From the IMG/VR virus record IMGVR_UViG_3300031753_000103, positions 1 to 45,911 of that record: a stretch of DNA of 45,911 nucleotides; one strand, given 5' to 3'. Within the stretch, counting starts at the first letter, position 1. Every line of letters begins with the position of its first letter. Positions 3,089 to 45,911 of this stretch are shown piece by piece. The notes beneath the pieces were generated by a model. The model saw nothing but the letters and a program-made list of their open reading frames with translations, made no database searches and was not told the origin of the DNA. Source of the DNA: a virus. A program made the position numbers and the translations under genes.

Positions 3089-3316
3089 TTAGGGCTCGAC
3101 CCCCGGCGCGACGGTCACGACCACGCCCGAGGGAGCGACCGTCGCATCCCGAAGCGTCACCTGCTGCGTCGATCCGTCGTCGAAGTGCACGAGCACATGA
3201 TCGCCCTTGCGCTTGCCGGCCATCGTCGCGTGGATCAGCGCGTGCAGCGAGTGGGCCACCTCTTTGCGATCCGGGGTGTCCGCTCCCGTAAATTCGACCT
3301 TCGTGATGTTCGCCAT
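3089..3316 (-). CDS. Conserved small phage protein of unknown function, 75 aa
   Basis: The ATG at 3314-3316 is preceded by GAAGGAGG, one of the strongest ribosome sites in the window, which sets the start well inside the longer open frame. The protein is a compact alpha/beta-looking polypeptide: MANITKVEFTG, a helix EVAHSLHALIHATMAGK, then two strands (DHVLVHFDDGSTQQVTL and SGVVVTVAPGVEP). No catalytic motif is visible. It lies between the lysis genes and the acetyltransferase. I do not recognise a family. Confidence 0.65.
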   Translation of the reverse strand: MANITKVEFTGADTPDRKEVAHSLHALIHATMAGKRKGDHVLVHFDDGSTQQVTLRDATVAPSGVVVTVAPGVEP

Positions 3317-3327
3317 GTGATCCTCCT

Positions 3328-3429
3328 TCAAAAACCGTATGGGCCGGGCATCATGATTAGGGTGGCGAGCGCCAGAAACGCAATAGCAGCGATGATGCCG
3401 ACCACGATCATCCGGCCGCGCCGCGTCAT
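3328..3429 (-). CDS. 33-aa single-span membrane peptide in the lysis cluster
   Basis: MTRRGRM is followed by one hydrophobic helix (residues about 7-26, IVVGIIAAIAFLALATLIMM) and a short tail GPYGF. The ATG overlaps the stop of the transglycosylase gene (ATGA), so it is translationally coupled to it. The positive N-terminus suggests an N-in orientation. Position and topology suggest a holin accessory or small lysis peptide, but there is no family match I can name. It lies below the usual length cutoff of gene callers. Confidence 0.55.
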   Translation of the reverse strand: MTRRGRMIVVGIIAAIAFLALATLIMMPGPYGF

Positions 3430-3893
3430 CCGTCCACCCCTTGCGCTTCCCAATAGGACTGCGCGTTGTCCCAGGCCTGCGGGTAGGCGTGGTCATCGAC
3501 CGCCGAGAGGTCGCGCAATACGCCGCCGACGCCGCGGTTATACGAATCCGCCCATTCCTCGTAGGATGGGTCTCGGTTGAGCCTCCCGGTAAGCTGCTCC
3601 CAATAAACCTTGGCGACCTTCATCCCCGTACGCAGCCCGATTTCCGGGTCGTACATCATCTCGGGGTTCGTGATGTTGGCGTCCACCTGCCGCGCGGTCG
3701 ACGCCAAAACCTGCATCAGACCGTAGCTCCCCTCGCCCAAGCGCGACTCGTAGCGGTAGGCGTGCGGCCGGAAGGCGCTCTCGATCTGGCAGAACGCCAT
3801 TACCTCGGACGGATTGAACCAGGAGGCGAAGTCGCGGTCGTTGACCTGCTTCACGAGGTCGAGAATTTGCTGCTGTTGTGGGGTCATGCTCAC
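3426..3893 (-). CDS. Soluble lytic transglycosylase (endolysin candidate), 155 aa
   Basis: This is a lytic transglycosylase (SLT) fold. CQIESAF carries the catalytic Glu38, GSYGLMQV (residues 55-62) is the family's central motif, and DSYNRGVG near residue 115-122 supplies the conserved Tyr-Asn. The expected reaction is cleavage of the MurNAc-GlcNAc bond of peptidoglycan with anhydro-MurNAc formation. There is no signal peptide, so release would depend on a holin, and two small membrane-protein genes lie just upstream. The start ATG overlaps the upstream stop (ATGA). At 155 aa it is about the length of the bare domain. A structural role in the virion is possible, but an endolysin is more likely here. 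Confidence 0.85.
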   Translation of the reverse strand: MSMTPQQQQILDLVKQVNDRDFASWFNPSEVMAFCQIESAFRPHAYRYESRLGEGSYGLMQVLASTARQVDANITNPEMMYDPEIGLRTGMKVAKVYWEQLTGRLNRDPSYEEWADSYNRGVGGVLRDLSAVDDHAYPQAWDNAQSYWEAQGVDG

Positions 3894-4640: not shown

Positions 4641-4844
4641 TTACGGGAAGAAATGGACTTTGAGAAGAAACCCGAGGGTTGTAACGACGACGGTCACGAT
4701 GAGCCAAGCGACCTTTTCAACGCGGGCGCCCCGCTCGTCGCACGCCGCCATGTGCATCCGTAGGGTGGTCTCCATGATCGTAACCCGCTGGGACAACTCA
4801 TCTCGCCGATCAAACGTTCGTCGGTCGGGAAGGTTCTGCTGCAT
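4641..4844 (-). CDS. XhlA-like/holin-like membrane protein, 67 aa
   Basis: The N-terminal half is hydrophilic and helical (RRTFDRRDELSQRVTIMETT). The C-terminus is a single hydrophobic helix (residues about 46-64, VAWLIVTVVVTTLGFLLKV) ending at FFP. Coil plus C-terminal span is the topology of haemolysin XhlA-type holin partners. Together with the 68-aa protein it could form the membrane-permeabilising pair for the transglycosylase. Proposed from topology and context only. Confidence 0.6.
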   Translation of the reverse strand: MQQNLPDRRTFDRRDELSQRVTIMETTLRMHMAACDERGARVEKVAWLIVTVVVTTLGFLLKVHFFP

Positions 4845-4983: not shown

Positions 4984-6000
4984 ATGCGGTGGCTGTCAAT
5001 GATAACGCTCCCGGTTCTCGCGCTCGGCGCGTCTGCGGTCCTAGCTGATCTCGTCGGGTGGGGGCATCAATGGGGCAGCCTGGCGATCCTGATGGCGGTG
5101 TTCTTCGGGCTGCGGGAGATGGGCGATGCCGGTTGGCGGCGGCTGTTGACGGCGGCGCTCGTGTTCAGCGTCTTCGTCGCCGTACTCGCCGTCGTGCAGG
5201 TCTGGTTCGTGCCGCGGTCGCGCGGGCCGTTTGCGTCGCCCAATACCCTAGGCGCGTTCGCTGTGCTAATGTTCTTCTTGGCTGTGGCTTGCGTACCCGA
5301 GGGTGGTCTGCTCCGTGTGCGGGACCCGGTTCGATTCCGGGCGGGGGCAGTCGCAGCCAACCTTCTCTCGCTCGCCCTGTCGCAGAGCCGCGGCGCGATC
5401 CTCGCCCTCGGGGCGGGGTTGGCCGTCCTGGCCCTGCGCCGCCCTCATGCTGACAGGCACGACCGGATTGATGCCGTGGCGATCATCGTCGTTGCCGCCG
5501 GCGCTGCCTGGCTGATGCGCCCCGAGATCGACCCGTTCCGCCTCCACGTATGGCAATGGGGATGGTCGATCTGGATGGACCGGCCGCTGACCGGCTGGGG
5601 GATCGGCGGCGTTTGGGTCGTCAATGGCGGGCGCTACTACAGCGTACCTCTCGAATGGGCGATGCAGACCGGAATCATCGGCTTGGAGGCAGCCGCTTGG
5701 CTCTACGTCGCCGCGGTGCGCCGTGCATGGGACCAGCCGGCGATGCTTGCCTTCCTCGCCGCGTGGCTCGTGCAGGGCATCTTCCTGTTCTCGATCCCCG
5801 CGACGATCATCCCGTTCTTCGCGGTGTTGGCATACCTCGACCGGCCCGATCGCGAGCCGGCATTGGCCGAGCCGGTGCAGGCGATACTACTGGCTAGAAT
5901 ACGGGAACGAAGCCTTGCACGCCGCCCGGCGTCATCACCACGAGCCAGCGCTGGACGGTGGTGTGCGCGTTCAGCGGCCCGACAGACGACATCGCAGTAG
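4984..6000 (+). CDS. O-antigen ligase/polymerase-like membrane protein, 338 aa
   Basis: This is a polytopic inner-membrane protein with about 8-9 hydrophobic spans. It carries the three landmarks of the Wzy/WaaL (O-antigen ligase) family: SRGPFASPNTLGAF (residues 79-92), SQSRGAIL (133-140) and DRPLTGWGIGG (199-209). A loop, YYSVPLEWAMQTGIIGLE, follows where the family usually has its His-Asn segment. Members join or polymerise O-antigen chains on undecaprenyl or lipid A acceptors at the periplasmic face. Here I infer alteration of host lipopolysaccharide, which could exclude competing phages. It is the only plus-strand gene inside the late operon. Its last 35 codons overlap the 3' end of the opposing gene and look like antisense sequence, suggesting an inserted gene that lost its own stop. 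Confidence 0.75.
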   Translation: MRWLSMITLPVLALGASAVLADLVGWGHQWGSLAILMAVFFGLREMGDAGWRRLLTAALVFSVFVAVLAVVQVWFVPRSRGPFASPNTLGAFAVLMFFLAVACVPEGGLLRVRDPVRFRAGAVAANLLSLALSQSRGAILALGAGLAVLALRRPHADRHDRIDAVAIIVVAAGAAWLMRPEIDPFRLHVWQWGWSIWMDRPLTGWGIGGVWVVNGGRYYSVPLEWAMQTGIIGLEAAAWLYVAAVRRAWDQPAMLAFLAAWLVQGIFLFSIPATIIPFFAVLAYLDRPDREPALAEPVQAILLARIRERSLARRPASSPRASAGRWCARSAARQTTSQ

Positions 6001-6208
6001 CCGTCGTCCCGTTCGCCGCAAAAGCGCCGGGGCCGAGAAGCTGCAATTCGCCGCCGTTGGCGTTCAGCGTGACCCATTGCAGGATGTAGTTGTTCAGATA
6101 CGAGAACAGCGATCCCGTGTCCTGCGGCCCGGTGATCGGCGCTGCCGCAACTGTCCCGATGACCGCGAGCGCAGCACCGGCGAAAAGCCCCTGTAGCAAA
6201 CGCTTCAT
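5894..6208 (-). CDS. Exported protein of unknown function, 104 aa
   Basis: The protein has a clear signal peptide: MKRLLQGLFAGAALAVIGTV, then an Ala-rich cleavage region near residues 20-24 (AAAP). The mature part is small and beta-rich (QWVTLNANGGELQLLGPGAF, TVQRWLVVMTPGGVQGFVPV). Signal peptides are uncommon on virion proteins, so a periplasmic role is more likely than a structural one. The 3' end is overlapped by about 107 bases from the opposing O-antigen-ligase-like gene. No family recognised. Confidence 0.65.
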   Translation of the reverse strand: MKRLLQGLFAGAALAVIGTVAAAPITGPQDTGSLFSYLNNYILQWVTLNANGGELQLLGPGAFAANGTTATAMSSVGPLNAHTTVQRWLVVMTPGGVQGFVPVF

Positions 6209-6807: not shown

Positions 6808-7215
6808 CTACGGGTTGGACGGCCATCCGGCCGCGATGTTGACCGCCTCGACGACGGCGACGGTGGCCGCCCCCGCAATCGCGGCGCGGAGTGTACGATA
6901 ATTGTTGGCGATCTGCGCAAGAAATGTTCCGACCTGCCCGGAGGTCAAGCCGGTCGCCGTGCCACCTCGGATGAAGGCGGCGAGGTCGAACGCCGCATCG
7001 AACACGGCATCGAGCGCGGCCAGCTTCCGTGCCTTGTGCCAAGAAAGTTCGGCCGCCGATCCCGAGTATCCCGAGATCAGCGATGTCGCGGCGCTCTCCA
7101 TCGCCGAAGTAGCGAAATGCACAGCGCCGGCGGGATCGACTTCAAAATGAATGCCTGCGGCATAGAGCGTATCGGTCAACCCAAGCGCCGTGATCTGAGA
7201 GAGCGCCAACGCCAT
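6808..7215 (-). CDS. Tail-fibre-associated protein, DUF4376-like C-terminus, 135 aa
   Basis: I prefer the ATG at 7213-7215, which overlaps the fibre stop as TGATG and has GGAGC upstream. A start four codons earlier is possible. The protein is helical and Ala-rich. Its C-terminal pattern (LTSGQVGTFLAQIANNYRT, then AAIAGAATVAVVEAVNIAAG and WP) resembles the end of DUF4376, a domain found in fibre-linked proteins. I compared from memory, so this is tentative. It lies directly after the collagen-like fibre, where fibre chaperones or fibre caps often lie. Confidence 0.55.
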   Translation of the reverse strand: MALALSQITALGLTDTLYAAGIHFEVDPAGAVHFATSAMESAATSLISGYSGSAAELSWHKARKLAALDAVFDAAFDLAAFIRGGTATGLTSGQVGTFLAQIANNYRTLRAAIAGAATVAVVEAVNIAAGWPSNP

Positions 7216-8654
7216 CAACTGCTCCATACACCAAAGATTGGAGCGTTTGTTGCTATTGCAGTTGTCGGCGTGGTGGCCGGATCAGCGAACGCCGCAGAAC
7301 CGCCAGCGACGGTGTATCCGGTTAGCGCGTTGTTGTTGTTGATGTGGCCTGTCAGGACCGCCGATCCGACAAGGGCCGTGCTGGCGATTGAACCGATGCC
7401 GGGCGTGCCGGTGCCACCAGCGGTCCAGATCGCTTGCATCGACTCAAAATACCAACCCGGCTCAAGATACACAGGGCTTGCAAGCGAAGCCGAGGCGACA
7501 ACGGCATTGGCTGCAAAGGATTGGTTCGCTGTGCCGAGAACTCCAAAATCGGCAAGCAGTTTGCCGGGATAGCCGTTGGTCGAGAGGATCGAGTAGAGTC
7601 CAGCATAAAGGTTGTTGTTTTGCCCTGTGTAAGTCGCTGTGATCTTGGCGCGCGCTTTCACAGCAAGGATCGGCGCGGCGAGATAGAATGGCAGGTAATA
7701 GATTGTGCCATTAGCCAGCGATAGCGAGTTGAGCGCTGTGCCGGCGATGAAAGGGATGATGCCAATACCGAGACGGCTGATCGTCGTCGAGGCCGCACCG
7801 CTGAACGGCACACCCCGCATCGTCTGCGCGCGGACTGGTCCGATCAGCACCAGCACATTCGCGGCCGTCCCGACGCTGATCGCGCTCGGTGCGTTGAAAT
7901 TGAAGGTCGGAGTGCTCGTGTTCTCGCTCGTGGCAGTCCAGTAGATCGCCGTACGCGCTAGTGTCGTGTGCGCGATGTCGGCGCCGAGGGTCAGCAGACC
8001 GACGCCTTCTTCCTCCTGCGAACGGGTTGTGAATGACGAGTTGGTGAACTCGATAATGTTGTACGAGACGGGGAAGGATTGAGTTGTGCCGAGGCCCTGC
8101 CCGGTATAGCCAGCGAAAGGATCAACGCCACCAGGCGGCGCGGGGCAGGCGGCACACGTCAGCGTCCCGGTGCCTGTGGTGGAGGTGCCGCAAACGAAGG
8201 CATCGCGCGGCAGCATCGAGCCGGATGCGCCGGTGGCGCCGGTCGAACCCGTGGCGCCGGTGGCGCCGGTCGAACCCGTGGCGCCGGTGGCGCCGGTCGA
8301 ACCCGTGGCGCCGGTGGCGCCGGTCGAACCCGTGGCGCCGGTGGCGCCGGTCGAACCCGTGGCGCCGGTGGCGCCGGTGGCGCCGGTCGCTCCTGTTGAT
8401 CCTGTCGCCCCGGTAGCCCCCGTCGCTCCTGTAGCCCCGGTGTGGCCTGTTGGCCCTGCCGGGCCAGCACCACCAGCCGCACCTGTTGCTCCGGTCGCGC
8501 CAGTGGGGCCGACCGTCCCGGTACCGCTCGCCGTTCCCGTGCTGCTGAGCGTGCCTGCCGCGAGTAGAAGCCCCTCGCCGACCTGTACGAGGCCGGTTCC
8601 GAAGGGGCCGCTGCCGAGCAGCGCCCCGCCGCGTGCTCCCTGCCCGGCCGCCAT
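7215..8654 (-). CDS. Collagen-like tail fibre protein, 479 aa
   Basis: A short N-terminal virion-binding part is followed by a long Gly-X-Y region (about residues 45-145) of GATGAT and GSTGAT triplets, a collagen-like trimeric shaft. The remaining 330 residues form a beta-rich distal part ([55 protein letters not shown]), which I take as the receptor-binding head. Five perfect 27-bp repeats (8227-8361) encode part of the shaft, so shaft length can change by slippage or recombination. It probably binds a host surface polymer. Confidence 0.8.
8227..8361. repeat. 27-bp tandem repeat, five perfect copies, in the fibre shaft
   Basis: The copies start at 8227, 8254, 8281, 8308 and 8335, with a partial copy after them. 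Each unit encodes nine residues (three Gly-X-Y triplets) on the minus strand, so gain or loss of units keeps the frame. Confidence 0.95.
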
Positions 8655-14146: not shown

Positions 14147-14826
14147 CCCATCATCACCGTGTTTGCATCGGGGATCACGGAGCGCCGCAGACGCGACATC
14201 CGGCCCTTGCCCTGGAAATCGAGTTCGTTCTGGTGCGCCCGCCATTCGATCTCGCGGTACGAGATATATTCGGCAAGCGTGCCGACGATCTCCGTGCCGT
14301 GATGCAGCAGGCGACCGTCGATCCTGATACCTTGGTCGATCAGGCGACCCGTGTTGCCGGCCTCGGGCATGTTGACGGTCCATTTGACCTTGCGGCTGAG
14401 CCGATCGCGCAACCCCGCCGCCTCGATGGCCTGCGGCGTCAGAAGGCCTGCGGTCAGGCGCGCATGCCGCTGCGCCCGGTCCTGCGCCTGCTTCTTGATC
14501 TTCTCCTTGCGCTCGGCCTTGGCCCGCGTCTTCTCGGTCTCGTAAATGACCCGCAGATCCATGTCGGACAGGACCGAGCGGGTTTCCTCGTCCTGTAGCG
14601 CCAGGAAGCGTTCGAAATCGTCCTCGGCGGGCGGCTCGGCGACCGGCAGCGGTTCGTCGAGGCCGATCACGGGCGCCGACTCGCCCTCGCGCGGCACCGG
14701 CGGCATCGGGAGCGGGGCATCCTCGGACGACGCTGCGGCAGCGGCCTTCTTTGCCGCGCGCGCCTCGCGCGCCAGCGCCAGGTTCTCGCGGAGCTTGGCT
14801 TTCTGCTCCTCGGTCAATTCCGACAT
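14143..14826 (-). CDS. Helical structural protein, 227 aa
   Basis: I took the ATG at 14824-14826 (MSELTEEQKAKLRENLALAR) over an ATG eight codons upstream. An Ala/Lys-rich helix and a Pro-rich linker (APLPMPPVPREGESAPVIG) precede a charged helical segment (IYETEKTRAKAERKEKIKKQ). The C-terminal compact domain has GNTGRLIDQGIRIDGRLLHH and ISYREIEWRAHQNELDF. It may bridge capsid interior or completion parts. No family recognised. Confidence 0.6.
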   Translation of the reverse strand: MSELTEEQKAKLRENLALAREARAAKKAAAAASSEDAPLPMPPVPREGESAPVIGLDEPLPVAEPPAEDDFERFLALQDEETRSVLSDMDLRVIYETEKTRAKAERKEKIKKQAQDRAQRHARLTAGLLTPQAIEAAGLRDRLSRKVKWTVNMPEAGNTGRLIDQGIRIDGRLLHHGTEIVGTLAEYISYREIEWRAHQNELDFQGKGRMSRLRRSVIPDANTVMMG

Positions 14827-14834
14827 GAAAACTC

Positions 14835-15143
14835 CTACGTCAGCGTCCACGGCCCGGCCGAGAGGCCGTAGCCGGTCAACAGGATCACCTGGCCGCTCGT
14901 CGCATCGACCGCGACGATGTCCCCGGGAAACAGCGTCAGGACGCCCCGGTTCGGGACGTAGAGTAGCCCTTCCTTGACAAAACCGCCGACGCCGCCGGTC
15001 TGCGCAACCGGGTGCCTCGCGTTCTGATCGTCCTTGATGATCTCGTTGATGTCGGACACGTCTTCGGCGTTGACCGCGACCGAATGCCAGACGAGCGCGG
15101 TCAGGCTGTTGGTCGCGTTCGTCCCGAGGAGCTGCGTTGCCAT
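14835..15143 (-). CDS. Small head protein, 102 aa
   Basis: It begins MATQLLGTNATNSLTALVWH and has a compact beta-type C-terminus (GLLYVPNRGVLTLFPGDIVA, GQVILLTGYGLSAG). Length and beta content fit a decoration or head-completion protein, but no diagnostic motif is present. It is adjacent (sharing base 15143) to the following 73-aa gene, in a run of small genes right after the major capsid gene. Confidence 0.55.
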   Translation of the reverse strand: MATQLLGTNATNSLTALVWHSVAVNAEDVSDINEIIKDDQNARHPVAQTGGVGGFVKEGLLYVPNRGVLTLFPGDIVAVDATSGQVILLTGYGLSAGPWTLT

Positions 15144-15364
15144 CAGGCCACCTTCACATATTCAGCGGTCATCGGATCATCAAGCATGGCGAGCACCAGT
15201 CGTTGAAGCGCTTCCTCGTTCGTGGAACCCACGCCGCTCCAAGCCAACTTCTTGCCGTCACGCTCGGCGCTGACAACGACTACAGCGGTATCCACTTGCT
15301 CCCAATATCCTTTCTGGGTTTGGGGAACGAAGCTGACGCGAACAACGGGCGCTGGCAAAACCAT
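15143..15364 (-). CDS. 73-aa conserved-looking small protein
   Basis: The ATG (15362-15364) overlaps the upstream stop as TGATG. The protein alternates strands and a helix (VVRVSFVPQTQKGYWEQVDT, AVVVVSAERDGKKLAWSGVG, then EEALQRLVLAML), a compact alpha/beta layout. No motif. Probably part of the virion or assembly set because of its place between capsid and completion genes. Confidence 0.55.
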   Translation of the reverse strand: MVLPAPVVRVSFVPQTQKGYWEQVDTAVVVVSAERDGKKLAWSGVGSTNEEALQRLVLAMLDDPMTAEYVKVA

Positions 15365-15681
15365 CACTCGCCGCCCGTTTGCCACCCATTGATCTGCGCC
15401 AAGTCGGCCGCAGTCAGAATGGTCGAGCCGCTGGCCGCCGCGAAATCGGAGACGATCTGCGTCAGCGCCGTGTTGATGTTTGCGAGCGTAACCGCGCCGG
15501 CCGTGCCCGGCACCATCGTCGCATCGTTCTTGAACAGCATCTGCGCGTTGCCGAGAGCGCCCGGCCCCGCCAGCGGCCCGACGCCGGGGTTGTTGCCCTG
15601 CGCCTGCCCCATCATCACCGTGCCGCCGCCGGCGGGCACCTGCATGAACCGGACCTCGACCTCGATGCGAACCTGAGACAT
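15364..15681 (-). CDS. Small protein downstream of the major capsid gene, 105 aa
   Basis: The N-terminal strands (SQVRIEVEVRFMQVPAGGGT) are followed by a Gly/Pro/Ala-rich central part and a C-terminal helix region (ANINTALTQIVSDFAAASGS). It starts about 25 bases after the capsid stop. Candidate capsid cement or head-completion protein, from position only. Confidence 0.55.
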   Translation of the reverse strand: MSQVRIEVEVRFMQVPAGGGTVMMGQAQGNNPGVGPLAGPGALGNAQMLFKNDATMVPGTAGAVTLANINTALTQIVSDFAAASGSTILTAADLAQINGWQTGGE

Positions 15682-15705
15682 AAGTCTTACTCCTTTGTCG
15701 GTCGA

Positions 15706-17052
15706 TCAGCCGAAGGCGCCGGTGTTGGAGGCCGAGCATTCGATCCGCGCCATCTTGCGCTGATCGAGGATCGTCCACCCCTCCATGAACTTATAACCAA
15801 TCACGCGGAGTTGGTCCAACTGGTCCGCCTTATCGGGTCCGGTCGGGCGCAGCCATTCGACGTTCTTCAGCTTGAGGCAGGCGAAGGCGTCGCGGCCGAA
15901 GATGAAGACCGGGTAGACGGTGACGCCGGTCGCCGGCGCGGCGGGCGGGATCATCGCGGCACCGAGGCCGGTGATCGTGACCGATGTCGAGGGCGGGATT
16001 TCGATGGCCTGGCCCTGGAAGGAACCCGTGACCGGCCCCGAGGTCGTAAGGCCAAGGTTGGTCGGGAGCGCGCCCGAGCCGACGCCGACATAGACGGCAT
16101 ACGTGAAGCCGGGGGTCGAGGGCGTGGTCAAAGAAATGCCACCGGTGGTCACGGACACGTCGGTCGAAAGCTGGTAGATCTGCGATTCGTAGAAGTTCTG
16201 GTTGTCCCAGCCCGTGACCTGGATCGTGTAGGTGCCGGTGGTCAGGTTGCCGCTGGCGTTGGAGCCATTGACCTGCGCGATGCCGGTGAAGGTCGGCGCG
16301 AGATTCGTCACGCAGAAGGTGATGCCGCCCCAATAACCCATCTGGTTGATGTAGAGACGATCCACGTCGCTGCGGGACCAGGCGTTGACGACGGTCGGGT
16401 TGTTGCGCAGGTCTTCCAGCGGGAAGATCGAGCCGATGGCGACGTAGTGCTCGACGCCCTTGATGGTCTTCTCGCTCTGCCGCGCGGTGTAGTCGATGGA
16501 ACGCTGCACCGTCTCTCCGGTCTGCCCGTTCCACAGCGGGGCACCGAGATTGTAGAGGTTGGCGTAGGTGCGGTTGACATCGGTCGGGTTCAGCACGTCG
16601 GTCGCCGCGAGGGCGGCGCGGGAGCCGACCGAATTGGCGTAATTGACCTGGGTGCCCGACATCAGGTTGACGAAGCCGTTGCGCTCCTTGAGCTGCGCGA
16701 GTTGCATGCCGAGCTGCTTGCTCGCCATCTTCATCAGGTCCTGCTGCGTCGTCACGGTCGCGACATCGGTCGCCACCCAACGGCCGGCCCATTGGATCGG
16801 GGTGCCCGTCACCATCGCAAAGTTGAGGCTGTTCGCGTCGGGCGGAACGCCTTCCGCCGTGGGGAAATGCGGCAAGGGCATGTATTGCCAGCGGATCGCC
16901 TCCCACTGGACGCCGCGGCCCTGCGGGATCTCCTTCTGATCGGCGAACTGGTAGAGAACGAGAAAGCGCTGGGTTTCCTCAAGCGCTTTCGCCGCGATCA
17001 AGCGGGTGGTAGCGGCGGCATACTGTTGAGAGGTATTGACTGTCAAGGCCAC
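15706..17052 (-). CDS. Major capsid protein, N4-gp56 family, 448 aa
   Basis: HK97-like capsid subunit of the N4-gp56 group, recognised by the N-terminal part (ALEETQRFLVLYQFADQKEI, RGVQWEAIRWQYMPL, TTQQDLMKMASKQLGMQLAQ) and the C-terminal core (VFIFGRDAFACLKL, ending MARIECSASNTGAFG). Residues about 258-375 look like an inserted Ig-like beta domain (GTYTIQVTGWDNQNFYESQ, FTYAVYVGVGSGAL) that would project from the capsid surface. It forms the icosahedral shell. It lies 37 bases after the scaffold gene, the usual order. Confidence 0.85.
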   Translation of the reverse strand: MALTVNTSQQYAAATTRLIAAKALEETQRFLVLYQFADQKEIPQGRGVQWEAIRWQYMPLPHFPTAEGVPPDANSLNFAMVTGTPIQWAGRWVATDVATVTTQQDLMKMASKQLGMQLAQLKERNGFVNLMSGTQVNYANSVGSRAALAATDVLNPTDVNRTYANLYNLGAPLWNGQTGETVQRSIDYTARQSEKTIKGVEHYVAIGSIFPLEDLRNNPTVVNAWSRSDVDRLYINQMGYWGGITFCVTNLAPTFTGIAQVNGSNASGNLTTGTYTIQVTGWDNQNFYESQIYQLSTDVSVTTGGISLTTPSTPGFTYAVYVGVGSGALPTNLGLTTSGPVTGSFQGQAIEIPPSTSVTITGLGAAMIPPAAPATGVTVYPVFIFGRDAFACLKLKNVEWLRPTGPDKADQLDQLRVIGYKFMEGWTILDQRKMARIECSASNTGAFG

Positions 17053-18029: not shown

Positions 18030-20231
18030 CTACTTTCGCGGCATTGCGATCATCCCCGCTCTCGGAAGTTGATCCGGATGAATCTGCCCCGGCGGCCCGC
18101 GCAGCGGCCGGTTCGGCTGCGGCTGCGCTCCCGGCTGCGGGCCGCGCGGCCCGGCGATCTGCGGCTGTCCCGGCTGCGGGCCTCCTCCGAGCATCGCCTG
18201 CGAGCGCTGCATCGAGGCCATGTTCTTCATCTGCATCGACTGCAAGTGCAGCATGATATGGGCGCGGATCATACCGTGCGGATCGCCGCCGGCCATCGCC
18301 TGCTGATGCGCCTGCAAGTGCTTCGGGTCGTCGTCGAGCGGATGTACCTGTACGTCATGCCCATCGGCCAGGAGGCCGTTTTCAAGCTCGGGGTCCATCG
18401 TCAACAGCGTGCGTTGGTCGATCAGGATGGACGAGCCGAGAAAAGCCCCGAAGATGTTCTGCGTGTTGGCGAGGATGGCCGGCGCCAGGTGCAGTTGGTA
18501 GCCTTCCAGCGCGAGCGCTTGGCGCATCGCCGGATCGCGCAGCACGTTGAGCCAGCCGGTCCCGAGCTGCTGCATCATCGCGTTCATCTTGACCTGCTCG
18601 CCGCCGCGCCAGATGAACGTATAGTGCGAGCGGTTCTGTAGCGGAGCCACGGCCTCCATCTTTGCCCGCACCCCCATCTCGCCGAATTGGCGGATCAGGA
18701 GGTCGCGGTCGCGGAACTGGTAATCGAGGTCGATCGCCCAACCGAGCGCCGGCGTTAGGCACGTCTCGACCACGACCTTGACCCCCTCGGCGGTCGTCAA
18801 CAGGTCAACCTGCTGGTCCTGCGCGATCTGCGCCTGGGTCGGCTTCCCGGCCCGCATCTGCTGCGGCAGCATCGACGGGTTGACCGATAGCGACTGAAAA
18901 ATCGCCTGGATCGCCATCTGCACCCGCTGAATGGCGCGTGGCGTCAGGTCCGGGAATTCGGCGATCTTGATCGCGTCGGGCGGGCAGTCGATCACCGCGC
19001 CCACGTTGTAGACGATGGGACCGTTGTATTTCTCGGGATCGCGGAAGATCATCGGCGCGGCCGATAGGGTCGCGGCATCGGCGCCCTCGTTCACCGCATC
19101 GTTCGCCTCGTACTGGATCGACTCGACCGCCTGGAGCGGGCTCCCCCCCTTGAAGACGCCGGCGATCTTCTTCAGCGGCCCCGAGAGCAGCGGGCAGCGG
19201 TCATTCCAGTAAGGGTTGCGCTTTGCCCCGAGCGGCACGCGTTTCGGGCCGAAGAACACCCGGCAGAGGCGCGGCGTCCCCTTCTCGTCGAATTTGCCGT
19301 CGTCGTCGAGCGGCAGCATGTGCCAGGTTTCCCACACCGCCGCGTGGCCGCCCTTGCCCTTGATGCCGACGTGCTCGATCAATTCCTTCTCGATGTCGCG
19401 CTGATCGCTGGCGACCGCCGCCATCTCGTTCTTGACCGTCTTCGCCTCGGCCTTGCGGACCACCCCGGCGTCGGCCATCTGGTCGATCTTGGCCTTCGTC
19501 CATTTGCGCACGATCGTCACCGAGCCGCCGACCGCCAGCGCCTCCTCGATCGTGTCGGCGGTGGGCGGCAGCACCAGCACGTCGGTATCGTGGACGACCT
19601 CGAAGACCGGCCGGCCCTCGATGATGTCCTCGATCTCGATGTCCTCGATTTCCTCGCCCGGCATCTCGGCGCCGGTCACGGGATCGCGCGGCGCGTGCGT
19701 TTCACGTGAAACGATCTGCCGCCCGATCTCGGCCCAATCGCAGTAGAGGTTTAGGTGCCCCTCGACGAGGCCGTTGCGCAGCAAGGGTTGGGCGACCTGC
19801 GTCTCGAAACGCCCTTGCCGCAGGTAGTGTTCGAGGAGGCCGACGATGGCGCGCGGCTGGGCGCCGTCCGTGTCCACGACCTCGACGGTACGGCCGCTTT
19901 GCGGGAAAAGCTGGTTCGACCACCGGGTTACGATGGCGTCAACCGCGTCCTTGATGATCGGCAGGTAGATGTCGGCGATGCCGCTGTAATAGCGGTTGCC
20001 GTTCGATTCGCAGTTGTAGCAGTCCCAATAGTCGGCGATGTCGTCGGCACGCTGCGCCTGGTCCTGATAGCCGCGCCAGATCGTGCCGGAAAGTTCGGCC
20101 AGATGTGAGCGCAGCTTTTCGGCCTTGCCGGCCAGCAGGTCTCGGTCGCGCGAGACCGGGGCGTCCGCCTCCGGTTCGGCCGCGGGCGGCGCTACGGCGT
20201 CATCGAGGACAAAGGCTTCCTCGTCAGCCAC
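18030..20231 (-). CDS. Portal protein, 733 aa
   Basis: Large podoviral portal. Typical segments include GNRYYSGIADIYLPIIKDAV and TRWSNQLFPQSGRTVEVVDT in the N-terminal wing, VNEGADAATLSAAPMIFRDP in the middle, and a stem/crown part (FQSLSVNPSMLPQQMRAG, then CLTPALGWAIDLDYQFRDRD). The C-terminal 80 residues are Gln/Pro/Gly-rich (barrel-like tail). A dodecamer would form the DNA channel and docking site of the terminase. The start is GTG (20229-20231), overlapping the upstream gene by 8 bases. Identification rests on size, segment pattern and place between terminase and scaffold. Confidence 0.8.
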   Translation of the reverse strand: MADEEAFVLDDAVAPPAAEPEADAPVSRDRDLLAGKAEKLRSHLAELSGTIWRGYQDQAQRADDIADYWDCYNCESNGNRYYSGIADIYLPIIKDAVDAIVTRWSNQLFPQSGRTVEVVDTDGAQPRAIVGLLEHYLRQGRFETQVAQPLLRNGLVEGHLNLYCDWAEIGRQIVSRETHAPRDPVTGAEMPGEEIEDIEIEDIIEGRPVFEVVHDTDVLVLPPTADTIEEALAVGGSVTIVRKWTKAKIDQMADAGVVRKAEAKTVKNEMAAVASDQRDIEKELIEHVGIKGKGGHAAVWETWHMLPLDDDGKFDEKGTPRLCRVFFGPKRVPLGAKRNPYWNDRCPLLSGPLKKIAGVFKGGSPLQAVESIQYEANDAVNEGADAATLSAAPMIFRDPEKYNGPIVYNVGAVIDCPPDAIKIAEFPDLTPRAIQRVQMAIQAIFQSLSVNPSMLPQQMRAGKPTQAQIAQDQQVDLLTTAEGVKVVVETCLTPALGWAIDLDYQFRDRDLLIRQFGEMGVRAKMEAVAPLQNRSHYTFIWRGGEQVKMNAMMQQLGTGWLNVLRDPAMRQALALEGYQLHLAPAILANTQNIFGAFLGSSILIDQRTLLTMDPELENGLLADGHDVQVHPLDDDPKHLQAHQQAMAGGDPHGMIRAHIMLHLQSMQMKNMASMQRSQAMLGGGPQPGQPQIAGPRGPQPGAQPQPNRPLRGPPGQIHPDQLPRAGMIAMPRK

Positions 20232-29657: not shown

Positions 29658-29921
29658 TTAACAGTTGTGCCCGATGATGCAGAGCGAGCGTGGCGAGAAA
29701 CATCCCGGCGCCGGCCTGCACGCTGTCTCGGCCTCGCGGTCTGCGACGGGCCACCAGCCGCGGCGGATCGCGGCCCGCGCGTCCTCGTAGGTGCGGGCGC
29801 TCTTGGCGCAGATGGCGGGTTGGTCCGGCAGGACAAGCTGATAGTCGCCATCGCCCGTGGAGGCAGCGGCGGCGAACAGCAGCGAGCTGGCGATCACGAG
29901 GTACGAGGGCAGCGCGGTCAT
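29658..29921 (-). CDS. Small exported Cys-containing protein, 87 aa
   Basis: The signal-peptide-like N-terminus MTALPSYLVIASSLLFAAAA is followed by a mature part with several Cys (DQPAICAKSARTYEDARAAI, ETACRPAPGCFSPRSLCIIG) that could form disulfides in the periplasm. The ATG overlaps the stop of the PAPS-reductase-like gene (ATGA). Unknown role. A secreted product of an early operon could act against superinfecting phages. Confidence 0.6.
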   Translation of the reverse strand: MTALPSYLVIASSLLFAAAASTGDGDYQLVLPDQPAICAKSARTYEDARAAIRRGWWPVADREAETACRPAPGCFSPRSLCIIGHNC

Positions 29922-30721
29922 ACGCCACAAATCCCTTCGCACTCGCCTCCCCACAGGTCAAGTTGATCTTCCTCAAGGTTCGCCTCTCCAAGAGGGACGC
30001 GCTGCGGGTGCATGAACTCGACCGCCCGCATCCCTCGCGAGTTGCCGGTGCGCAGCATTGCGTCCACGGCTACGGCGTCCGCAAAGTCGGTGGGGCTCTG
30101 CGCCTTGAGCGTCCGCCATTCGCTGTTTCCGCGGTACGGGCAGCCGATGCAGGCCGATTTCGGCGGGGTCGGATAGTCGTGCTTTTCGAGCCAGCGCAGG
30201 CAGTCGCCGCGGGTCATCCGCTTGTCGATCAGCGGATAGATGTTGACCATGTAGGCCTGCCGCGCCGGCTTCATCCGCTGCGCCTCGTCTCGTGAGATGC
30301 CGAGCAGGACTTGCACCGCGCCAGGCCGGATGTAGGCCCGTCCCGGCCTGCCGAGCAGCCGGCGGATTTCGTGCATGATCGGCGTCAGTTTGTATTCCGA
30401 CGAGCATTGCCGGCGACCCATCCCCTGCGAGCCATTGGGGTTGACCGTGTGCCAGGGAACCGCCGCGAACCGGCCGCCGGTCGTGTTGCGACGATCCCTG
30501 ATGCCGTCGCGGATGTTGCCCTGAGTGACTACGTTGACCGGGAAGGGCAGCACATTCGGCGAGCGGAGCCACGCCAGATGATCGTAGACCGCCTGCGGCT
30601 CCCACTGCGTGTCGGCGAAGATTGCTATGTCGGGCGGCTCAATCTCGCCGTGCGCGGCCATCAGCGCGAGCGTCGTCGATTGGACGCCAGCGCCAAGGGA
30701 GAGAACGCGGAGCGCGGTCAT
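29918..30721 (-). CDS. PAPS-reductase/DndC-like PP-loop protein, 267 aa
   Basis: The N-terminal PP-loop is RVLSLGAGVQSTTLALMA (residues 5-22). Further family landmarks are IAIFADTQWEP, an Arg-rich middle (GMGRRQCSSEYKLTPI), and a C-terminal Cys pair CIGCPYRGNSEW. The fold activates a substrate with ATP and, in relatives, handles sulfur (PAPS reductase, DndC). Phage versions are widespread with no settled role. Options are nucleic-acid modification, interference with host phosphorothioation, or sulfur scavenging. It is coupled to genes on both sides. Confidence 0.8.
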   Translation of the reverse strand: MTALRVLSLGAGVQSTTLALMAAHGEIEPPDIAIFADTQWEPQAVYDHLAWLRSPNVLPFPVNVVTQGNIRDGIRDRRNTTGGRFAAVPWHTVNPNGSQGMGRRQCSSEYKLTPIMHEIRRLLGRPGRAYIRPGAVQVLLGISRDEAQRMKPARQAYMVNIYPLIDKRMTRGDCLRWLEKHDYPTPPKSACIGCPYRGNSEWRTLKAQSPTDFADAVAVDAMLRTGNSRGMRAVEFMHPQRVPLGEANLEEDQLDLWGGECEGICGV

Positions 30722-41304: not shown

Positions 41305-41590
41305 GAAGCAGCCTCTCGTCGCCTACTCCGTCGCTCTCTCCTACGGGACGGGGGCGTACGGGACAGGCGCTCTAATCGTCAATACCATCGTTGCCCCCTC
41401 GCCCGAGGCCGCGGTCGCGATGATGACCGACATGCTCTACCGCCAGCGGATACCGACTGACACGCTGACCTGCGTTGCCGTGGTGCCGATGACGCTGGAA
41501 TGGCTGCGCTGGGCCACCCGCGCGGTCGAGAGCGGCGATCCCAACGGCGGGCGCGTGCTGTCGCTGGTGCAGCCGCCGCCTGCGGCCTAG
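41297..41590 (+). CDS. 97-aa protein, last rightward early gene
   Basis: MPEKQPLVAYSVALSYGTGA, then TIVAPSPEAAVAMMTDMLYR and VVPMTLEWLRWATRAVESG. Alpha/beta. It overlaps the upstream gene by 8 bases and the opposing ATP-grasp gene by 4 bases tail to tail, so no terminator separates the early rightward and late leftward transcripts. Confidence 0.55.
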   Translation: MPEKQPLVAYSVALSYGTGAYGTGALIVNTIVAPSPEAAVAMMTDMLYRQRIPTDTLTCVAVVPMTLEWLRWATRAVESGDPNGGRVLSLVQPPPAA

Positions 41591-42885
41591 GCGTACCGCA
41601 AGCCCATCGCGTAGCCGTGCGCGTTCAGCTTGTCGATCTCCCCCCGTAACCGCGTCCCAATGTCTTGGCGGTAGAAAGGCGATGCTGGAATGCTCAACCG
41701 CTCGATGGCCCGCAGCGCCTTGCCGCGAGCCTCGACGACCGTCTCGCCCGTGCCGCTGGCGATCAGCACATAATCCCCCGCCGTCTCAAGCGCATCCTTT
41801 CCCTGCTTGACCTCAGCAAAATGCAATCGGGGCAGCAGGGCGGGCGTAATCCCATGAATGGGGATGCCGACCACCTGCTCGTAGTCGGCCACCGGCCCGG
41901 GGAATGGCGGTAGCGCCAGCACGATACCTACCGCGACCTCGTTCATTCGATGCGCGTGCTTCGGCGGGCGTCCTTCGGCAAGCCCCGCCAGAAACTCGAT
42001 GAAATCGCCCTCGACCAGCGCTTGCTCGATGCCGCAAGCAGGCCAACCGCACCTGGCCGTCCATTCGAGCGGCCACGCCGCGCCGTCCTCGTCGATGATC
42101 GTGTTGCAATCCATGCAGCCGACGAACCCGGTGCGGCTCAGCATGTCCTCGACGGGCTTCAGCACCTTGTCGGCGAGCTTAGACCGTGACACAAAACGCA
42201 TCACGGTCCCCATCTCGCCGGTGTTCGGCCCGATGTCGCCGGCGCACAACCTTTTGTGCTCGTGGTTTTCCTCCCATTCGCCGGTAAAGCCAGCGGGGCC
42301 AAACCAGCATCCGACGCCCAATTCGACGCCCTTGATTGGCTCTTGAAGGATGAACGTGCCCTTCGGCCGGCCGTGCCGCCGCTTGAACTGGCGCAGCATG
42401 TAGGCCGGGTCTTCGTCAACCCCGCTCTTGCACGACAGCGCCTTGTCGGCGTCGGGCCAGCACGGCTTGGAATAAAACGGGTGCCCCACCTTCTCGATGA
42501 AGGCAATGGCTGAATCGTAATCGGTGAACTCGCGGACGGGCGGGATGGCAATGCCGGCACGCTTGAAGATCGCCATGCCGTGCAGCCGGTCGTTCTCCCA
42601 AGCGGCGCTTTCCGGCGTGCCGCCGATCCAGGGGACGCCGCGCGCTGTGCAGCGGCGCTGGATTTCCAGCATCGGCAGGTCATTCGATCCGAGGATGGCA
42701 AGGTCGCACCAGCCGATTGATTCCCGCCAGTCTCCGACGCGCGTTACGAGGCCGGTGCCGACCGGGCACTTGCGCGCGTCCCACCCCTGGCAGAAGTACC
42801 GCACGTCGTGACCGTGCGCTTGTGCTCGCAGCATGAGATCGAGCAAGCCGTCCGGGGTCTTTTCGATCCCGAGAACCCGCATCAC
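41587..42885 (-). CDS. PurD-like ATP-grasp ligase, 432 aa
   Basis: ATP-grasp enzyme of the phosphoribosylamine-glycine ligase (PurD) type. GHPFYSKPCW (Lys140), FILQEPIKGVELGVG (Glu182, residues 178-192), the PurD-like signature GPNTGEMG (219-226), CMDCNTIIDE and LEWTARCGWP (Glu274, Arg278) form the nucleotide and metal site. Such enzymes join a carboxylate (glycine in PurD) to an amine. The N-terminal domain (VLGIEKTPDGLLDLMLRAQA) lacks the usual PurD GxGGREHAL loop, so the substrate probably differs. It is the last gene of the virion operon. Candidate roles are nucleobase or nucleotide modification, or decoration of a virion or host amine. Confidence 0.8.
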   Translation of the reverse strand: MMRVLGIEKTPDGLLDLMLRAQAHGHDVRYFCQGWDARKCPVGTGLVTRVGDWRESIGWCDLAILGSNDLPMLEIQRRCTARGVPWIGGTPESAAWENDRLHGMAIFKRAGIAIPPVREFTDYDSAIAFIEKVGHPFYSKPCWPDADKALSCKSGVDEDPAYMLRQFKRRHGRPKGTFILQEPIKGVELGVGCWFGPAGFTGEWEENHEHKRLCAGDIGPNTGEMGTVMRFVSRSKLADKVLKPVEDMLSRTGFVGCMDCNTIIDEDGAAWPLEWTARCGWPACGIEQALVEGDFIEFLAGLAEGRPPKHAHRMNEVAVGIVLALPPFPGPVADYEQVVGIPIHGITPALLPRLHFAEVKQGKDALETAGDYVLIASGTGETVVEARGKALRAIERLSIPASPFYRQDIGTRLRGEIDKLNAHGYAMGLRYA

Positions 42886-44591
42886 GGCCCGCCGACGCTG
42901 TGCCTCGGCTCCCGCGCGGGCGGCTCGATGTAGTCGCCGTCCGGGTAGCGCCTTGGCGGCGACGGGGGCGGCTGCGGAAAGCCGCGTGATGGTAGCGGCG
43001 GCATGGCCGGCCCGCCTTGTGACGGCGCCGCTGCCCCGCTACCGAGCATCCTGAGCCCCATCGCGCCCTGATCCGGCGGCTGGCCATAGCGCCCCATGCT
43101 CGGCGATCCCACCTCCTTCATCGCCTCGCGCCGCTGGAACATGCGCATTATCGCCCGGTTCGGATCGTTGAGATACCGCACGGCGTGTTTTGAAATCTGC
43201 GCGGCGGCCCCGCTTGCGAGCATCTTTGGATTGACCGTCGCCAAACCCATGAGGATCTGGTGCGTCGTCGCGACATCGGCCATGCGGTTGAGCAATCCAG
43301 GCTTCTTCGCCAGTTCACGGCTCGCCGCCTTGGTCACGTCATCCTCGATTGAGCGCAGCGCACCGTACTGATGCTTGAACGCCTGATAGCCAGGGGTGGT
43401 CGCGTTTGAGATCGCCGAATCCAGCAGCTCTCGGTGCATCGTGGCGATCGGCTCAAAGACATCGCCTTGCGCCTTCATCTTGTTCTCGTAGTATGAGCGC
43501 CATTCGCCGTTGATGAGTTTGATTCGTTTCTGCATCTGCAACGGCGTCTCGACCCCTATCTTTTCAAGGTCATCGGCCTTGCGCAGCAACTTGGCGGCCC
43601 AATCGGGATGTTCCGAGGCAACCACCGGATCGCGACCGATTTCTCGATATTTAGCCACGATCGGCGACAGCGGGATCACGACCCCCATCTCCCCGGTCTG
43701 CCGGGCGAGCGCATCGTACTTCTGGAAAAGCTGCGACTTGATCTGGTCAATCGAGTCGGAAAACTGTCGCAAGGTCCGCGGAAGCATGCCCGGCCGCTCT
43801 GCGTTACCGGCCGCGTCGGTCAGCTTCAGCGTGTTCTTGTTCTCGATAATCTGGTCAATAGCCGTGATGATACGCCGGTCCTGCTCATCCAGCCTTGGCG
43901 CGCTCTTTCGTCCCTTGAGGCCGGGGTTAATCGCCTGCCGGTACTGCTGCGAAATCGCGCGATCCACCGCCCCGGGGTTGTTCTCGGCAATCGCGGAACC
44001 AAGAGTGGACGGCTCAGGGGCCGGTGCAGGCGTCGGCTCAGGCCGTGGCAACGGCTCAACCCGACCGCCGCCAGCCTGTGCGATCTGCTCAGGCGTCTTT
44101 GGCCCGCCGTAGATGCCCTTACCGCCGCCCCTGACATCGCCCATGACGCCACGCGCGCCGGCGAGCATGGACGGTGCTTCAGCCGCCTCCGTGGTCAACC
44201 CTCGCGCTGGGCCGCCGCCTGCCATCAGCATTGCGGTCCCGAGGCCCTGCGCCGGCGACTGCGGCCCCGGCTGCTTCTCGCCCGTCAGGTACTGCCCCGG
44301 CGTCTTGATGGCTTCCCACAGCGATTCGCCGATGCCGCGCGCCGCCGAGCCGAGCATGCGCCCACCGAAGCCGGAACGGCCGCCGGCAAATTTCGATGCG
44401 CGGCCCTCGGGGATGCCCTTGCCTTCGACGCCAGCGGCGACGCCCGAGCCGAAATTCTTGATCCCCTGCCAGATTTCGTCACCGATGCCTTGCGCGGGTG
44501 CGGCCGCCGGTCCAGATGGTTTGATTGTGTATCCCGGCGGCAGCCCACCAGCGGCAGGCTTGATTGTATACCCTTCGGGCAAATCACTCAT
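42882..44591 (-). CDS. Large internal virion/ejection protein candidate, 569 aa
   Basis: The start overlaps the upstream stop (ATGA). The N-terminus has two copies of a short repeat (LPEGYTIKPAAGGL, PPGYTIKPSG), a motif I have seen at the start of phage ejection proteins. A Gly/Ala region (GIKNFGSGVAAGVEGKGIPE) and a Pro-rich linker precede a long helical domain (residues about 230-470; LRQFSDSIDQIKSQLFQKYD, MHRELLDSAISNATTPGYQA). It ends Pro/Gly-rich. Third member of the 546-650-569 aa set. No enzyme motif. Confidence 0.65.
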   Translation of the reverse strand: MSDLPEGYTIKPAAGGLPPGYTIKPSGPAAAPAQGIGDEIWQGIKNFGSGVAAGVEGKGIPEGRASKFAGGRSGFGGRMLGSAARGIGESLWEAIKTPGQYLTGEKQPGPQSPAQGLGTAMLMAGGGPARGLTTEAAEAPSMLAGARGVMGDVRGGGKGIYGGPKTPEQIAQAGGGRVEPLPRPEPTPAPAPEPSTLGSAIAENNPGAVDRAISQQYRQAINPGLKGRKSAPRLDEQDRRIITAIDQIIENKNTLKLTDAAGNAERPGMLPRTLRQFSDSIDQIKSQLFQKYDALARQTGEMGVVIPLSPIVAKYREIGRDPVVASEHPDWAAKLLRKADDLEKIGVETPLQMQKRIKLINGEWRSYYENKMKAQGDVFEPIATMHRELLDSAISNATTPGYQAFKHQYGALRSIEDDVTKAASRELAKKPGLLNRMADVATTHQILMGLATVNPKMLASGAAAQISKHAVRYLNDPNRAIMRMFQRREAMKEVGSPSMGRYGQPPDQGAMGLRMLGSGAAAPSQGGPAMPPLPSRGFPQPPPSPPRRYPDGDYIEPPAREPRHSVGGP

Positions 44592-45911
44592 TGCGCCGGC
44601 ACCCACGTACCACCGCGATAGACCAGATCGGGCTTGCCCGGTGCGGTCGCGATGTCACCTTCCTTCGGGCCGGTAGGTGCCGCGTCTTGCTGTTGCTCCA
44701 CCACCCGGTTCTTTTCGACGAACGACCTAAACGTGTCCTGATCGCCAGCTTTCTCACGGAATGCAAGAACCTCGGCCGGCGTCCACGGAATCGCTTTGGT
44801 GATCGACTCGCGCATCGCCTTGGCGTAATCCTTCTGTTGCGCGCCGACCCAATCGGTGTTGACGACCCCCTCCAAGGCATTGTCAACGGTCTGCCGCATA
44901 CGGGCGAGATTGTAGAGTTTCACGAGATTGGTCTGGCCCGGCTTCAGCGAGAGAGCGCCGAAACTTTGCGCCGCCCACTTTCCCCCGTAGACAGGCGAAG
45001 TCACAATCGACAATTCCCGCTCAAGATTCGCAAGAGCGCTATTCGTCAACTGCGCGTCCTCGTCGGTCAGCGTCTCGGCAAGATTCTCTTTCAAAGCGTC
45101 CAGCAATCCAGGCCCCTGCTGCCTTCCGCCGAAGATGCCTCGGTTAGTGGAAATCGGCATTTTGGAAACATTTTCGAGGTCGGACTGGATTTCACGCGCA
45201 GCGATGATCTGGCGCTGCACCTGAGCGCCGCTGCGCCCCGCGCCGCCTGCGGCCCCCTTGCCGGTGTCCTCAACGCGATCAGAAACAATCGGCTCTCCGG
45301 TGGCTGAGTTAACCCACCCGGTCGGCGTCATCTTCGCCGATCCCTCGAATACCTTCTCGCCGTCCTTGAACGCGACGATGTTGTGCGGCTGGCTCTCCCC
45401 TCCCTTCGTGCCAATGACGTGCGCGCCCCCCGGTAGCGTGATCGGCTGCGCTTCGTTGCTGCCAGGCCGTACCCGCATCGGACCCTTGTCGGTTTCAAGG
45501 ATCGTGCCCGGTTCCTCCGCGCGCTTACGCTGCTCGTCGGAGAGTTTGTTGGCGCGCTCCCAATCCTTGATCTCGGCATCAACCTGCGTCTTGTATTGCT
45601 CCCATGCGCGTTTGGCCTTCTCCTGCTCGACCGGGGCGAGACGCGCCCTCTCGTCGTTGTAGATTTTCAGCTTCACGGCCCCCGGCAGGTTCGGGTACGC
45701 CTGGTCGATCTTTTGGGCGAGCGCCGTGTCGCTCATCTTGCCATTGACATCGGGCGGGATGATCGCGTTGAGCCGCTTGCGCAGATCGCCCGCCGAGGGG
45801 ACCGTGGCCGGCGCTTGTGGCTGTTCCGCGCTGGGCGCCCCCGGCTGGCCATCGGGGCCGGGAGAACCGGAAGCGCCCACTTCGGCATTGTCATTTTGTC
45901 CGACGATGCCT
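44588..45911 (-). CDS. Virion-associated lytic/ejection protein, C-terminal 398 codons (continues from 756-1)
   Basis: This is the rest of the 650-aa protein. The 45785-45911 segment repeats 1-127, and the unique part is 44588-45784. After a Pro/Gly linker it is strongly helical and charged (DTALAQKIDQAYPNLPGAVK, AKRAWEQYKTQVDAEIKDWE, LSDEQRKRAEE), then mixed (QRQIIAAREIQSDLENVSKM, QTNLVKLYNLARMRQTVDNA, WTPAEVLAFREKAGD). It ends with PDLVYRGGTWVPAQ. The long helices fit a channel-forming ejection protein. The gene-like start at 45878-45880 is internal, not real. Confidence 0.75.
   Translation of the reverse strand, partial: GIVGQNDNAEVGASGSPGPDGQPGAPSAEQPQAPATVPSAGDLRKRLNAIIPPDVNGKMSDTALAQKIDQAYPNLPGAVKLKIYNDERARLAPVEQEKAKRAWEQYKTQVDAEIKDWERANKLSDEQRKRAEEPGTILETDKGPMRVRPGSNEAQPITLPGGAHVIGTKGGESQPHNIVAFKDGEKVFEGSAKMTPTGWVNSATGEPIVSDRVEDTGKGAAGGAGRSGAQVQRQIIAAREIQSDLENVSKMPISTNRGIFGGRQQGPGLLDALKENLAETLTDEDAQLTNSALANLERELSIVTSPVYGGKWAAQSFGALSLKPGQTNLVKLYNLARMRQTVDNALEGVVNTDWVGAQQKDYAKAMRESITKAIPWTPAEVLAFREKAGDQDTFRSFVEKNRVVEQQQDAAPTGPKEGDIATAPGKPDLVYRGGTWVPAQ
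45785..45911. repeat. Contig-end overlap, copy 2
   Basis: Same 127 bases as 1-127, lying in the Pro/Gly linker of the 650-aa gene. Remove one copy when circularising. Confidence 0.95.

Follow-up and report, generated by a model that had tools for sequence, protein, structure and literature searches.

What is a gene for a polytopic membrane protein doing on the strand opposite the late genes of a phage, and what does its product act on? The question is raised by an open reading frame at positions 4984-6000 (+) of the window, which is the whole stretch of DNA analyzed here (45,911 nt of IMG/VR virus record IMGVR_UViG_3300031753_000103, an uncultured phage). Translation gives 338 residues with no internal stop, and a sequence-only reading had described the product as an O-antigen ligase-like protein with three family landmarks, encoded by a gene inserted in the virion operon of an alphaproteobacterial podovirus. 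Based on an alignment in which the window protein is joined by 11 homologues taken from IMG/VR contigs (12 sequences in all), on the gene content of related phages and on comparison with known systems, we favor, with a probability of roughly 0.6, a cargo gene of the WaaL/Wzy_C superfamily that alters or blocks the host surface polymer and thereby excludes other phages.

The simplest answer would be a spurious or decaying frame opposite the late genes. Such an explanation could draw on the facts that no promoter-like site was seen and no clear ribosome-binding site was found upstream of the ligase-like gene, and that the C-terminal tail of its product merely reads the neighboring gene in antisense. 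Against it, the 12 divergent homologues are conserved in one orientation, their alignment stays in frame with insertions and deletions confined to loops, and dN/dS values, far below 1, range from 0.19 to 0.44 over the membrane core (Nei-Gojobori, pairs of relatives), indicating purifying selection. The in-frame alignment and these ratios therefore point to a real gene, translated and maintained, and a spurious frame was rejected in practice, its probability being negligible. The third-position GC of the frame is likewise coding-like (0.61/0.56/0.76). The window protein shares 38-53% identity with its homologues and, since these start at the equivalent of M6, the true start is probably 4999 rather than 4984.

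The gene lies antisense to the late genes, with tail-fiber genes on one side and lysis genes on the other (Table 1). It is, as had been claimed, the sole credible plus-strand gene of a minus-strand late block, the remaining long plus-strand frames of the block each lying opposite a conserved gene for capsid, terminase or tail. The putative holin gene starts 139 bp away and is divergent from the ligase-like gene; its product had no PHROG match. The window further encodes a GNAT acetyltransferase (PF00583) near the lysis genes (2400-2867, -), with 51-56% identity in relatives. Farther away are a phosphoadenosine phosphosulfate reductase-like gene (29918-30721, -; phrog_424, E 3.4e-39) and a gene for an ATP-grasp protein resembling phosphoribosylglycinamide synthetase (41587-42885, -; PF01071, PF02843), the latter adjoined by genes for two large proteins without a match (42882-44606 and 44588-45880).

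Table 1. Features of the ligase-like gene and of its surroundings, in window coordinates
Feature	Position	Strand	Remarks
Membrane core of the Wzy_C/WaaL-like protein, residues 1-285	4984..5838	+	start probably 4999 (M6)
Hydrophilic C-terminal tail	5839..6000	+	last 107 nt overlap the end of the 5894-6208 gene in antisense
R136 codon (QSRGA), invariant	5389..5391	+	opposite R191 (7TPG WaaL chain) and R215 (E. coli WaaL)
R186 codon (R..W), invariant	5539..5541	+	opposite R265 (7TPG WaaL chain) and R288 (E. coli WaaL)
Y219 codon, invariant (12/12)	5638..5640	+	at the catalytic-motif His position of WaaL and of the G022 phage Wzy
E224 codon, Glu or Asp in 12/12	5653..5655	+	aligns with the Glu five residues past the WaaL His
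Putative partner gene, 104 aa, signal-peptide-like N-terminus (by eye) and conserved domain	5894..6208	-	convergent, overlapping
67-aa protein with one C-terminal TM segment, probably a holin-like lysis gene	4641..4844	-	by eye
Endolysin candidate in the lysis block, an SLT-type lytic transglycosylase	3426..3893	-	PF01464, E 1.9e-12; phrog_669
Tail fiber protein with collagen repeats, encoded in the late block and upstream of the module	7215..8654	-	

The protein makes a good sequence case for membership of the WaaL/Wzy_C superfamily. Among 24,736 Pfam models, Wzy_C (PF04932) is the sole consistent family, matched over the whole profile by 11 of the 12 members with a best E-value of 3.8e-6. 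The window protein itself scores 21.0 bits (E 3.1e-4), below the Pfam cut-off of 31.7, while one homologue passes this cut-off at 32.8 bits when its whole frame is scored in a six-frame search. A search of 177,635 PDB sequences with the 12-member profile placed the WaaL chain 7TPG at the top (E 0.0054), followed by unrelated matches at E ≥0.33; the same search with the single sequence or a 5-sequence profile returned nothing, WaaL being found by the 12-member profile only. IctB, which we take to belong to an O-antigen-ligase-like family, matched weakly. Comparison by hhalign with the single sequences of E. coli WaaL, epsilon15 Wzy and D3 Wzy was not significant. No match was found in PHROGs, and tblastn returned nothing from 50,697 phages with the window protein or its homologues, nor from 72,556 plasmids with the window protein; none of the annotated phage families searched includes this one.

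All three landmarks noticed in the polytopic window protein are kept across the 12 sequences, namely F-x-SPN-x-LGA, QSRGA, and R..W..G.....P.tGwGxgg followed by YS.PLE....G, with F-x-SPN-x-LGA, QSRGA, R186/W190, GxG, Y219, P222 and G230 invariant. The two arginines that bind pyrophosphate in WaaL are in register with R136 and R186, each present in 12/12 sequences; the register of R186 falls within the significant stretch of the 7TPG alignment, and that of R136 with R191 draws on the QSRGA motif and on alignments that are weak. In the 7TPG alignment, Y219 lies opposite H313 of the H-N motif and E224 opposite the Glu five residues later. The E. coli WaaL aligns with the 7TPG chain, and its R215, R288 and H338 correspond to the same positions in an alignment to the 12-member profile that is itself not significant. 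The catalytic histidine of WaaL (H313 of 7TPG, H338 of E. coli) is absent and replaced by tyrosine in all 12 members. The superfamily rule for this histidine was judged from WaaL, epsilon15, D3, the G022 phage and the literature. In G022, a more distant phage of the group, an independent Wzy_C gene (L112:1000-2109, +), apparently on the virion-gene strand, has the normal His (HSDGLQMLFELG) aligned with Y219; when the two profiles are compared one to one, it aligns with the 12-member family at E 6.8e-7. The His-to-Tyr change within the ligase-like family is firm. The description as O-antigen ligase-like stands for the superfamily, to which the Wzy_C matches and the top rank of 7TPG testify, and not for ligase activity; the residue that is the catalytic base in WaaL is Tyr throughout.

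Structure prediction, which had been proposed as a check against WaaL, gave a split answer. A first AlphaFold2 model, from 5 sequences, had a pLDDT of 53.8 and a pTM of 0.51; Foldseek searches of 350,542 chains ranked RodA first and second and WaaL fifth for this model, with probabilities of 0.99-1.00 but non-significant E-values of 0.03-0.12 and TM-scores of 0.39-0.44. A second model, from 12 sequences, scored better (pLDDT 80.5, pTM 0.78), gave no fold match and bears no resemblance to WaaL or RodA. Both models have nearly identical helices, with about ten membrane spans, a helix at 180-199 and a hairpin carrying Y219. The agreement of the helix boundaries indicates that the difference between them is one of packing. 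Models of membrane proteins from shallow alignments can be wrongly packed.

The gene meets a small convergent gene tail to tail, the two sharing 107 nt at their 3' ends. The last ~35 residues of the ligase-like protein are an antisense reading of 5894-6208 (-), as the antisense-like terminal codons seen from the sequence alone had suggested. Among the 12 aligned members, 11 have both genes side by side, and only in G012 (L128) are they apart, by 3.5 kb. In 10 of these 11, the membrane core ends no more than 6 nt from the small-gene stop; the distance in the window is 55 nt. Past the core, the ligase-like frame of each of the 11 continues for 84-345 nt antisense through the small gene to its own stop. 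The C-terminal tail shows no conservation independent of the 5894-6208 gene and, because the frame reads antisense through that gene, it is not conserved in its own right; what is conserved is the junction.

Presence and absence were counted, with the window included, over the 17 records that reach 40 kb or more. The ligase-like gene occurs in six (window, G005, G009, G012, G014 and G018) and is missing from the other 11 (G002, G017, G019, G022, G023, G024, G025, G028, G029, G030 and G031); as no record has a completeness estimate, absence holds for the record only. The gene is accessory and non-core. On a capsid tree the pattern requires at least two changes: the gene is fixed in the sub-clade of the window, and G018, with the gene, adjoins G019, without it. 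The term "inserted" is apt insofar as this is not a fixed core gene; a recent insertion was rejected, given fixation in the sub-clade. The small gene is present in exactly the same six records, so that both genes or neither are found in 17/17. Under random assortment such co-occurrence has a probability of 1 in 12,376, a figure to be read in the knowledge that the records are related, and its clearest independent event is the contrast between G018 and G019. In G005 the small gene matches weakly, at E 1.5e-16 and across two thirds of the profile. The small convergent protein is probably a dedicated partner of the ligase-like protein.

Several observations concern the surrounding region in relatives. 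Many proteins of the tail/fiber region of the late block start, by eye, with a Sec signal-peptide-like stretch, which is unusual for virion proteins (window 5894-6208, -; L003:12943-14322 and 14400-14906; L008:17383-18771 and 18768-19670; L012:13306-13980). Just upstream of the small gene, several relatives encode a second polytopic protein of about 286-323 aa with several conserved histidines (L008:14511-15449, L012:15263-16216, L015:13678-14538 and L019:15169-16140, all +), which had no Pfam or NCBIfam match and was not seen in the window. In L003, which lacks the ligase-like gene, the corresponding region encodes a methyltransferase (PF08241) together with a protein that weakly matches a glycosyltransferase (Anp1), at 14908-15456 and 15674-16408. 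A similar-looking pair (L106:2309-2842 and 3153-3779) sits beside the ligase-like gene in G012. G022 has its other Wzy_C gene in place of the ligase-like gene. The methyltransferase/Anp1 region may be a spot for surface-modification cargo. Pattern scans with the ligase and capsid alignments found no relative among 84,980 prokaryote genomes, and no host or prophage assignment can therefore be made; for the suggested alphaproteobacterial host no link was found, and the label podovirus was likewise not confirmed.

The same alignment would fit a ligase, a polymerase or a decoy, three readings that sequence does not separate. A catalytically dead decoy would act as a competitive block on O-antigen assembly, binding either the host Wzy/WaaL complex or Und-PP-linked glycan, in the manner of the known alpha-polymerase inhibitors but made from the polymerase fold. 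The replacement of His by Tyr in 12/12 members with both substrate-binding arginines invariant fits such a protein, the corresponding His-to-Ala mutant of PglS, a related enzyme, serves as an inactive control (PMC12800693), and conversion by phage D3 proceeds partly through inhibition of the host polymerase (PMC4815439). Yet the strictness of the Tyr, together with a Glu or Asp always five positions on, suggests a working site, and RodA, where WaaL has the His, relies on an acidic base, Asp (PMC10449877). We regard a decoy as rather unlikely.

A true O-antigen ligase, as the title of the sequence-only reading implies, would link lipid A-core to a glycan that is either the host's or specified by the phage. 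It appears improbable: WaaL is the closest solved structure by sequence, but the alignment cannot separate polymerase from ligase, the WaaL His is missing, and the well-studied phage members found in the same slot are polymerases. Still less credible is an unrelated polytopic membrane protein, such as a transporter or a superinfection-exclusion protein, whose likeness to Wzy_C would stem from composition and short motifs. The lack of a fold match for the better-scored model and the weak single-sequence scores speak for it. They are countered by the full-length match of 11/12 members to a single Pfam model, by a best PDB sequence match to WaaL with the functional residues in register, and by the ranks of RodA and WaaL for the weaker model.

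Returning to the superfamily cargo gene that acts on the host surface polymer, we propose that an ancestor of the phage sub-group acquired the gene, which would have been retained in a slot used for serotype conversion. The polytopic inner-membrane protein would bind Und-PP-linked glycan on the periplasmic side, with R136 and R186 presumably holding the pyrophosphate, and the host O-antigen or capsule could then be altered through a Wzy-beta-type change of linkage or through a block of normal polymerization or ligation. For a protein carrying Tyr at the His position, two modes are considered: E224 may assist as a base, a role suggested because the position is always Glu or Asp and RodA uses Asp, or the protein may be an inactive competitor. 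The expected outcome would be an altered or shortened surface polymer offering fewer receptors to competing phages or to the phage's own progeny, so that later phages would be unable to adsorb and progeny would escape trapping on debris.

Phage-borne O-antigen polymerases are classic genes of lysogenic conversion. Here, no match to PF00589 (tyrosine integrase) or PF00239 (serine recombinase) was found in 11 records, a scope that leaves aside other integration modes and missing contig ends, and lysogenic conversion therefore lacks support. A more specific proposal, which we hold only tentatively and lean against, is that these phages, in which no integrase was detected, carry a module of two genes against superinfection. 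It would act in lytic infection rather than lysogeny and combine a Wzy/WaaL fold, changed from His to Tyr, with a small exported partner. In such a module, the Tyr would be either a new catalytic solution or the mark of a pseudo-enzyme inhibitor, and the convergent overlap would lock both genes together. The ligase-like gene is a candidate surface-exclusion system in uncultured phages. The family keeps the slot and the substrate-binding arginines and loses the His, in phages without a detected integrase, and so offers a natural test of whether the superfamily His is needed for chemistry.

The described conversion cases used for comparison come from a few temperate phages with known hosts. WzyPh1 of Acinetobacter baumannii prophages, compared by description, is also a phage-borne surface-glycan polymerase, which overrides the host linkage and is shown to change that of the capsule (PMC9241936); unlike the window gene, it is carried by prophages of a known host. 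WaaL (7TPG and 7TPJ, and the E. coli enzyme), of which 7TPG is the best PDB match of the family profile, shares the arginines and the acidic residue in register, whereas the ligase-like protein has Tyr for His and is shorter, with about 10 predicted TM helices. RodA/SEDS glycosyltransferases, the top fold match of the weaker model, match neither the sequence nor the better-scored model.

The closest parallels in arrangement are Salmonella phage epsilon15 and Pseudomonas phage D3, although the ligase-like protein has no significant sequence match to the Wzy-beta of either. In epsilon15 (NC_004775, 23271-24662), Wzy-beta is likewise a polytopic protein with a Wzy_C domain (PMC4815439), annotated "O-antigen ligase family protein", and its gene is reversed relative to the late genes and convergent with the tail-spike gene, with the tail spike on one side and holin/endolysin on the other. 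A small protein, the alpha-polymerase inhibitor, is encoded beside wzy-beta as the small gene is here. Compared by form, that inhibitor has 66 aa and two TM segments and is encoded in the same orientation, whereas the partner described here is signal-peptide-like, convergent and overlapping. The serotype-conversion unit of D3 comprises iap, an O-acetylase and wzy-beta, of which iap and wzy-beta run against the late genes, with tail genes on one side and endolysin on the other, like the window gene; infection by D3 brings serotype change and superinfection resistance through its conversion genes (PMC4815439). Both phages have an integrase, none having been found in 11 records of the group of the window, and D3 additionally has the O-acetylase. 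The canonical motif of the last periplasmic loop is VHN (VHNLYL) in epsilon15 Wzy-beta and IHN (IHNILS) in that of D3, as opposed to YS or YN in the ligase-like family. The sequence-only reading had called the carriage of such a gene beside lysis and fiber genes notable; slot and orientation have precedents in these two phages, and phage-borne genes of the Wzy/WaaL type are known as a kind, so that what is new is the replaced His and the linked small partner.
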